Below are positions 2,055 to 23,523 of a stretch of 46,275 nucleotides of DNA, one piece after another. Made by a program: the position numbers and the translations under genes. The notes beneath the pieces were generated by a model. It was not told where the DNA came from and ran no database searches. It worked only from the letters and a program-made list of their open reading frames with translations. Each line of letters begins with the position of its first letter. Position 1 is the first letter of the stretch. Source of the DNA: Actinomycetota bacterium (GTDB taxonomy: Bacteria > Planctomycetota > Phycisphaerae > JAACET01). The DNA is taken from the NCBI GenBank assembly GCA_011682385.1, contig JAACET010000003.1, forward strand, positions 1 through 46,275, written 5' to 3'.

Positions 2055-3530
2055 ATGGGTGCAGAGGTGTCGTCAACAACGTTACTGAGACCTTTTGATC
2101 TTGAGCCGAATAGCTTAGCCGGTAAGAAAATTACCATAATGGGCCTGGGCCGATTCGGCGGCGGGTCCGGTGCCGCTCGTTTCTTTGCCCAGCACGGTGC
2201 ACAGGTAGTGGTAACGGATTTGGCCCAACCCCAAACCCTTACCGAGTCTGTCCAGGGCCTTGCTGATCTACCGAATATCACCTTTCATTTGGGCGCCCAC
2301 CGGGATGAGGATTTCACCTCTGCCGATGCCGTAGTGGTCAATCCTGCCGTTCCTTTGGACTCACCTTTTCTCGTCTTGGCTAATCGCGCCGGGGTCCTAT
2401 TGACGGCCGAGATGAACATCTTGTTCCGATTATGCCCAGCCCAGATTGTGGGCGTCACCGGCTCTAATGGTAAGAGCACTGTCACGGCGATGATTGGCAG
2501 TGTCTTTTCAGCCGCCCAAAAGGCTCAGCAGGGCAACTTCCGCCGAGTATTTGTTGGCGGAAATATCGGACACAGTCTATTAGCCGAGCTAGACCGGATC
2601 AGCTCCGGGGATGTCGTGGTAGTTGAGCTTTCCAGTTTTCAGTTGGAGGCCCTCACTGCCGAAGGGATTTCCCCACACGTTGCGGTTTGGACGAATTTTT
2701 CAGCCAACCACCTTGATCACCACGGCACCATTGATGCTTACCGAGAGGCCAAGCGGAACATTTTCCGTTTCCAGCTCCCCCAGGATGTGTTGGTCTACAA
2801 TGCCGACGACGTCGGCTTGGAGTTCCTCAGGTCGGACGCGGCAGTGTGCTCTCGGCGAGTTATTTTTTCTCTGCAAGATTCCTCTGCTGATGCGCATACC
2901 GCTGACGGTTGCCTGGCCTTGAGATATCCGCCCGGCAACCGTGTGGAAAAATTGCTTGATTTGAAAGATATGCCCGTTCCTGGCCGACACAACATTGCCA
3001 ACGCCTTGGCGGCTGCGTGTGTCGGTGCCCAGTTCAACCTCTCTGGTGCTGCCATCACTGAAGGGCTCAGGACATTCAGGCCCTTGCCGCATCGACTGGA
3101 GTTGGTGGCCACTGTCGCGGGTGTCAGCTACTACGATGACTCCGTAGCCACTACCCCGGAATCTGCCCTGGTTGGCTTGAATTCCTTTGACTGCCCTCCT
3201 ATTATTATCTTAGGAGGCAAAGATAAGGGAGCCGAGTTCGATATATTACTACGTGCTTGTATAGACAAATGTTATGGAGTTATCTGCCTGGGCCAGATCC
3301 GGGATAAACTCCTGCAGCAGCTCCTAAACTTGCGAGGCCGGAAGCGTCGGCCCCACATAATTGGCGTCGATAGCCTGGAACAGGCGGTTGCAGCCGCAGC
3401 CTCTCTGGCCAAGCGGGGCCAGGCAGTCCTGCTCTCGCCGGCCTGTTCAAGTTACGATATGTTTACTAATTTCACCGATCGTGGGCAGCGATTTGCAGAG
3501 ATTGTCCGTGCTTTGCCTTCTGCCAAGTGA
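2055..3530 (+). CDS. murD: UDP-N-acetylmuramoylalanine--D-glutamate ligase
   Basis: GVTGSNGKSTVTAMIG, ELSSFQLE, TNFSANHLDHHGT, FRPLPHRLELV, DDSVATTPES, ILGGKDKG. Confidence 0.95.
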   Translation: MGAEVSSTTLLRPFDLEPNSLAGKKITIMGLGRFGGGSGAARFFAQHGAQVVVTDLAQPQTLTESVQGLADLPNITFHLGAHRDEDFTSADAVVVNPAVPLDSPFLVLANRAGVLLTAEMNILFRLCPAQIVGVTGSNGKSTVTAMIGSVFSAAQKAQQGNFRRVFVGGNIGHSLLAELDRISSGDVVVVELSSFQLEALTAEGISPHVAVWTNFSANHLDHHGTIDAYREAKRNIFRFQLPQDVLVYNADDVGLEFLRSDAAVCSRRVIFSLQDSSADAHTADGCLALRYPPGNRVEKLLDLKDMPVPGRHNIANALAAACVGAQFNLSGAAITEGLRTFRPLPHRLELVATVAGVSYYDDSVATTPESALVGLNSFDCPPIIILGGKDKGAEFDILLRACIDKCYGVICLGQIRDKLLQQLLNLRGRKRRPHIIGVDSLEQAVAAAASLAKRGQAVLLSPACSSYDMFTNFTDRGQRFAEIVRALPSAK

Positions 3531-22939: not shown

Positions 22940-23227
22940 GTGGAGAATGTATCAGTGTTATCAGGTGCGCGTGTGCGCTTTGCGCTATCTCGCGTAGTGT
23001 GTCCGGATTTTGATGAGGTTTGCAGAAAGACTGACTCGAATCTGGAGGTTGAAGGGCGAATCGTATTTCTTTCCGACTACGGAAAAGTTCGGAAGCATTT
23101 TGCGGTCGTTCAGGTCAAAGGAATACATGTGCCCTTGATTGTACCTGTGGAGGAACTCCGGTTGGGCGGTGCTTCCCAAACCCAACCCAGGAAGGTCTCG
23201 ATAAAGAGGAATAGGGCTGTCGGCTGA
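22940..23227 (+). CDS. Hypothetical 95 aa protein
   Basis: ORF directly downstream of the sigma-54 promoter; GTG start; LEVEGRIVFLSDYGKVRKHFAVVQVKGIHVPLIVPVEELRL looks like a small beta-rich fold. Confidence 0.65.
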   Translation: MENVSVLSGARVRFALSRVVCPDFDEVCRKTDSNLEVEGRIVFLSDYGKVRKHFAVVQVKGIHVPLIVPVEELRLGGASQTQPRKVSIKRNRAVG

Positions 23228-23235
23228 GTAATGCA

Positions 23236-23490
23236 GTCCTGACAGGAAGCAATAATAAGCACTCTCTCTCCCCCAGGCTTGGGTTTTTCAGAGAAATGAA
23301 GTTCTCAAGCCTGACTGAAAACATCGGCCGTTGAGTGAGGCCGAGGATATATAGTTTCAAGGTAGTTCTTCCCTTTCATGGGGAAGCAGTATTTGCTCTC
23401 TCTCCTCCAGGCTTGGGTCTTTGTTCTTACACAAGTCTCAAGCCTGATAGAAAACAACGGCTGATGTACTGGCCGATGTATCTTATATAA
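23236..23490 (+). ncRNA. Candidate structured RNA: two tandem units, each with three hairpins
   Basis: Units from about 23236 and 23368, period about 134-137 nt. Shared GAAGCA, TCTCTCTCCYCC, CAGGCTTG...CAAGCCTGA, GAAAACA, CGGC(C/T)...GGCCGA; ends in an intrinsic terminator. Confidence 0.55.
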
Positions 23491-23491
23491 C

Positions 23492-23523
23492 GGGCCCGCC
23501 ATTTGTTGGTGGGCCTTTTTTTT
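23492..23523 (+). terminator. Rho-independent terminator
   Basis: GGCCCGCC-ATTTGTTG-GTGGGCC followed by TTTTTTTT. Confidence 0.92.

Follow-up and report, generated by a model that had tools for sequence, protein, structure and literature searches.

Organization of the array

The window is a 46,275-nt stretch of a planctomycete genome of 2.35 Mb in 185 contigs. On its plus strand, an array of two hairpin units begins 35 nt after the stop codon of a 95-codon ORF (22940-23227) and closes with the strongest terminator-like site of the stretch. The features of the locus are as follows.

22940-23227, + strand: conserved 95-codon gene with a GTG start, from a family unnamed in Pfam and NCBIfam, with the RNA array as its 3′UTR
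23236-23248, + strand: small hairpin TCCT-gac-AGGA, 5′ of unit 1, sequence not conserved
23253-23316, + strand: unit 1 core, C/U tract plus hairpin I (model R1, 49.4 bits)
23262-23274, + strand: unit 1 C/U tract CTCTCTCTCCCCC, unpaired, proposed anti-Shine-Dalgarno seed, running on into AGGCTT
23274-23313, + strand: unit 1 hairpin I, arms 23274-23281 and 23306-23313 plus inner pairs
23324-23344, + strand: unit 1 hairpin II, TCGGCC/GGCCGA (23324-23329/23339-23344); position kept in relatives, sequence variable
23368-23386, + strand: small hairpin CTTCCC/GGGAAG, 5′ of unit 2
23387-23449, + strand: unit 2 core, C/U tract plus hairpin I (model R1, 49.0 bits)
23396-23408, + strand: unit 2 C/U tract CTCTCTCTCCTCC, proposed seed
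23408-23446, + strand: unit 2 hairpin I, arms 23408-23415 and 23439-23446
23458-23475, + strand: unit 2 hairpin II, CGGCT/GGCCG (23458-23462/23471-23475)
23492-23523, + strand: intrinsic terminator closing the array, 10-bp stem and 5-nt loop (stem 23492-23516) plus U-run

Each unit takes the form of a single-stranded C/U tract, CUCUCUCUCC(C)YCC, followed by a hairpin in which the 5′ arm, AGGCUUGGG, shows conservation as well. Within the unit, conservation is highest in the tract rather than in the stem. Pairing in hairpin I extends beyond 8 bp through the inner pairs GGG../..CUC and CUU/AAG. The fold of the 296-nt stretch is predicted at -110.9 kcal/mol, against -83.6 ± 5.1 kcal/mol for shuffles (z = -5.3), with none of 200 shuffles as good.

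An initial annotation of this DNA had placed the C/U tracts, the CAGGCTTG/CAAGCCTG arms, GAAAACA, the second stems and the terminator, and we find each of them where it had been put; the conserved small ORF directly before the array had been missed. It had also described a small hairpin ahead of each unit. Both are present in the window, but the feature is not constant in the family, and most relatives have only one variable hairpin between successive units. Spacers between units usually contain a second, variable hairpin (mean z of -1.6 for 24 spacers, mononucleotide shuffles).

Structure and covariation

The absence of covarying pairs from an adequate alignment had been named beforehand as grounds for giving up the RNA interpretation. 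In a MAFFT alignment of 45 units, 11 of the 17 pairs show compensatory changes, and hairpin I has 85 double-changed cells against 24.6 ± 6.0 after shuffling (plain MAFFT alignment). When this alignment is slid by one column, the covariation score of 0.36 falls to 0.17 or less. Among 111 distinct fitted rows there are 235 double-changed cells against 72, and 16 of the 17 pairs covary across all matches, though the all-match alignment is fitted to the model and so biased toward the structure. The lower stem and the C/U tract are almost invariant across the family. Pairs of U with G are frequent on this strand; the opposite strand would read A-C. Judged from the alignments, a conserved structured RNA family on the plus strand is close to certain.

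In the window, the arms CAGGCTTG/CAAGCCTG form an inverted repeat whose spacing is nearly constant, and the initial annotation had left room for a DNA-level element in which they are half-sites for a dimeric regulator. Across the family, however, the arms co-vary with pairing kept, the loop varies in length, and only one strand has frequent U-G pairs. Since covariation and one-strand U-G pairs point to RNA rather than inverted DNA half-sites, we give this alternative next to no credence, and the covariation has already largely refuted it. The tandem structured units followed by a terminator could also suggest a tandem riboswitch or aptamer, the other function that had been raised. This option found no support and we regard it as very unlikely: the array lies after a stop codon, the terminator stands at its end with no directly controlled gene downstream, the genes that do follow differ among genomes of the same genus, and what is conserved is an unpaired tract instead of a binding pocket.

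Distribution of the RNA

A DNA search of 60 relatives detected tandem units in the two genomes of the same genus and in a single genome from a different family. Each same-genus genome has a homologue of the 95-aa gene with three units (two in the window), and the last unit of these arrays is itself a terminator hairpin with a U-run. Three further DNA matches were obtained, one of which (L006) is a true relative; the others (L004 and L005) were rejected as chance matches in coding sequence. Downstream of the protein homologues, the DNA contains units of one common form, CUCUCUCUCCCUCCCAGGCUUGGG-stem-loop-stem.

The exact pattern CTCTCTCTCYCTYYCAGGCYTG is found in 30 stretches among 84,980 species, all within the class Phycisphaerae. 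The underlying records are MAGs named Phycisphaerae, Phycisphaerales, Sedimentisphaerales, Planctomycetota or "bacterium", with one exception, a 666,241-base contig labelled Alphaproteobacteria (L050, JANQQE010000021.1). Because its length and its unit are those of contig C10 of class member G022, the label is taken to be wrong and the contig appears to belong to the planctomycete class.

We built covariance model R1 from the 45 units. It matches both window units at an E-value of about 1e-11, though both were among the units used to build it. In the class, it detects the unit in 72 of 397 genomes, about a fifth. A phylum sample of 294 genomes gave 4 matches, of which the 2 outside the class are only weak, and no unit was found in viral contigs. 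Rfam release 15 yielded no family at gathering or permissive thresholds. The suhB/mmgR family (RF00519) resembles the terminator part only weakly (17.8 bits, E = 0.79), and membership was rejected as far under the 41-bit gathering score. The initial annotation had proposed an undescribed tandem structured RNA, to be checked by covariance-model searches of related genomes and Rfam. With homologous units in the class, no Rfam match and strong strand-specific covariation, that proposal is borne out. On these sequence searches the array belongs to a previously unlisted small-RNA family that is confined, apart from the two weak matches, to the Phycisphaerae. The literature we searched contains no described sRNA family for this planctomycete class. 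A candidate RNA from Planctomycetes and Proteobacteria, the Rhodopirellula-1 motif, has been reported (Weinberg 2010; PMC2864571). The sequences were not compared, but the unit described here was not found outside Phycisphaerae save for the two weak matches.

Genomic context and the 95-aa protein

A protein profile search found homologues of the 95-aa protein in 32 of the 397 class genomes, and all 32 also have the RNA (hypergeometric 2e-27). This co-occurrence is partly circular, as the model was built from these very loci. At the protein loci fetched, the units lie directly 3′ of the gene, and every same-genus array sits 3′ of a homologue. About 40 class genomes have the RNA without a detected protein. 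For the 34 homologues, Pfam gave no match and NCBIfam none beyond chance. AlphaFold2 predicts a small, beta-rich, barrel-like fold with moderate confidence (pLDDT 73.6). A structure search with this model gave no PDB match at E ≤ 0.001, and the best matches, to SH3/chromo/Tudor-like barrels, were weak (E of 0.1 or worse).

Family f5 has 20 loci that resemble free-standing single sRNA genes. Their tract, hairpin and U-run are invariant, the 5′ part is variable, and the last 55 nt are nearly identical. Most have a promoter-like TTGAAR/TTGCAR-N16-17-TACGAT/TAGAAT about 85 nt before the tract, though these promoters are consensus-like only, and by sequence the unit hairpin serves as the terminator. 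The gene upstream in several of these loci (L104, L114, L115) presumably encodes a glycyl-tRNA synthetase. The 3′UTR-derived sRNA offered as one option by the initial annotation fits well with these free-standing copies. There are no transcript data, but a trans-acting sRNA processed from the 3′UTR array is the probable product.

The C/U tract could instead be a cis element, a Rho-loading or RNase entry site, with the hairpins merely protecting or ending the small-protein mRNA. YC-rich tracts suit Rho, and the arrays end in terminators. However, the free-standing copies have promoter-like sequences where the gene is absent, and a 13-15 nt tract conserved letter for letter, together with the 5′ arm, exceeds what Rho needs. 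We consider a purely cis role unlikely.

An RNA-binding protein, conceivably the 95-aa protein, might also recognize the tracts and hairpins as repeated binding sites, with the array then acting by titration or by feedback on its own mRNA in the manner of a CsrB-like sponge. Tandem copies, the very strict sequence conservation of the tract and 5′ arm, the strict adjacency to one small-protein family and the predicted small, barrel-like fold would all be consistent with this. Yet the protein was not found in the approximately 40 class genomes noted above, and its predicted structure is only of moderate confidence and without a significant PDB match. Such a protein-binding array is a minority possibility that we do not dismiss.

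Other arrangements were seen in the window's genus. Variant units follow ECF sigma genes in L101 and in L336 (2080-2139, 17 bits), and in L100 they precede a PEP-CTERM cluster. A second unit type, with UCUUCUCUCCUUCUCUCUACC or a divergent version of it as its tract, is present at L336:2080-2139, L099:3695-3751, L100:4714-4910 and L101:3045-3103; within the genus these units are placed downstream of ECF sigma genes and upstream of PEP-CTERM genes. In L041, L052, L108 and L109, a purine-rich leader (GGAGCGGAGGAGAGA-like) about 100-150 nt 5′ of the unit might base-pair with the C/U tract of that same unit.

Relation to known systems

The closest parallel in organization is CcsR1-4/CcaF1 of Rhodobacter sphaeroides (cuckoo RNAs, CIN1), in which a small-protein gene is followed by tandem homologous 3′UTR sRNAs and an intrinsic terminator (PMC10253847, PMC8625941). 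The planctomycete locus has tandem homologous RNAs in the same position, also ending in a terminator, though only the sequence arrangement is known here and transcription has not been shown. In Rhodobacter, RNase E together with the small protein cuts the transcript into unit-length sRNAs, a step that is only presumed for the planctomycete array. The upstream protein in Rhodobacter is a DUF1127 protein, whereas the 95-aa protein has no Pfam match and is not DUF1127, and the RNA differs in phylum, target set and seed and has no Rfam match. The Sinorhizobium anti-Shine-Dalgarno sRNAs AbcR1/2 and NfeR1 act through CUCCUCCC-type motifs on ribosome-binding sites (PMC8844928). A C/U-rich motif proposed to pair with target ribosome-binding sites is common to both, but no sequence relation was found, the planctomycete unit is tandem behind a small-protein gene, and Hfq was not found in the RNA-bearing genomes searched. 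In outline, the planctomycete RNA would work like CcsR/CcaF1 and AbcR, but it is a member of neither.

Hfq (PF17209) was not matched in any of the 12 RNA-bearing genomes searched, several of which are incomplete; 5 of 14 control genomes were matched. The arrangement looks independently reached relative to the alphaproteobacterial CcsR/CcaF1 loci. Because Hfq was not found in the genomes tested, another protein would have to assist the RNA, and the neighboring 95-aa protein is a possible helper. Its role as a partner is inferred from the neighborhood and by analogy with CcaF1, without binding data. The family can now be searched for by model and comes with this candidate protein partner.

Predicted targets and proposed action

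The C/U tract is complementary to the extended Shine-Dalgarno sequence GGAGAGAGAG. In the window's own genome, GGAGAGAGAG occurs outside the array as the ribosome-binding site (RBS) of three genes and at a few coding or intergenic places. All three genes are PEP-CTERM by sequence; two pass the TIGR02595 cut-off, and the third was not scanned. Among RNA-bearing genomes, 23 readable genes have GGAG[AG]GAGAG before the ATG, and 16 of them are PEP-CTERM; in RNA-lacking genomes the count is 4 of 15, a modest contrast (P = 0.011). These PEP-CTERM calls were mostly made by regular expression; seven were checked with curated models, with five confirmed and two unmatched. The four PEP-CTERM genes from RNA-lacking genomes are in G010 and G023 (L316, L317, L319, L322), where either a divergent RNA or another cause of the RBS word may be involved. 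Since PEP-CTERM genes have the same RBS in genomes without detected RNA, the word may have a cause other than the RNA. Copies of TCCCTGGGAGGGAGAGGG in G010, G004 and G031 were considered as a divergent relative and rejected, as they are numerous and apparently a palindromic genomic repeat.

Three genomes yielded 13 non-self sites in a search for the 19-nt complement (tract plus AGGCUU, up to 3 mismatches), which is independent of the choice of RBS; the reversed control yielded 1. Six of the 13 are at PEP-CTERM genes: one at the RBS, one in the 5′ region and four a single base past the stop codon. Another coincides with the RBS of an ECF sigma gene. The single such site in the window's own genome is the RBS of a PEP-CTERM gene, matching at 18 of 19 nt. 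The best candidate duplexes are predicted at -34 to -38 kcal/mol. Complementarity is extended by CCUGG.. at some GGAGAGAGAG sites, and CCAAGCCTGGTTAGGAGATGAGAG precedes the ATG of one more PEP-CTERM gene (L161/L334). An array of protein-binding sites would leave this complementarity unexplained.

Across the GGAG-type RBSs of the genus, GGAGAGAGA is not clearly enriched (11 observed, about 7 expected, P about 0.1). RNA-lacking relatives have the GGAGAGAGA-type word at rates similar to those of RNA-bearing genomes, and three RNA-bearing f5 genomes have no such RBS sites at all. For these reasons, the target claim is suggestive only. Unselected PEP-CTERM genes often have ordinary RBSs, and the sample from unselected stretches is thin (two genes in 268 kb of the window's own genome, none in 400 kb of G327). 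Pairing of the RNA with the small protein's own RBS, as in autoregulation, was not evident. Without expression or pairing data, we put the chances of anti-Shine-Dalgarno action on PEP-CTERM and ECF sigma mRNAs at about even.

The explanation that we favor by a little, without transcript data, is that the 3′UTR array of the small-protein gene gives rise to processed sRNAs that repress a small regulon. The array would be co-transcribed with the 95-codon gene and cut into unit-length sRNAs, and the C/U tract would then pair with the extended Shine-Dalgarno sequence and block translation. Targets would chiefly be PEP-CTERM surface proteins and an ECF sigma factor, and the RBSs of PEP-CTERM and ECF sigma genes provide a concrete target list. 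A more speculative extension, which we hold to be possible but doubtful, is a two-part module specific to Phycisphaerae, in which the small beta-barrel-like protein is the dedicated chaperone or processing factor of its sRNA array in the absence of a recognizable Hfq, with the sRNAs acting at the RBS to regulate ECF sigma factors and the exported PEP-CTERM proteome.

Places resembling the whole unit, tract and hairpin included, were also seen on the antisense strand over the stop codons of adjacent PEP-CTERM genes, at 20-28 bits (L102:1300-1353 (-) and 2251-2304 (-); L100:2398-2439 and 3454-3495). At these loci the end of the PEP-CTERM mRNA is nearly complementary to the sRNA, and a shared origin or a target mimic is possible.
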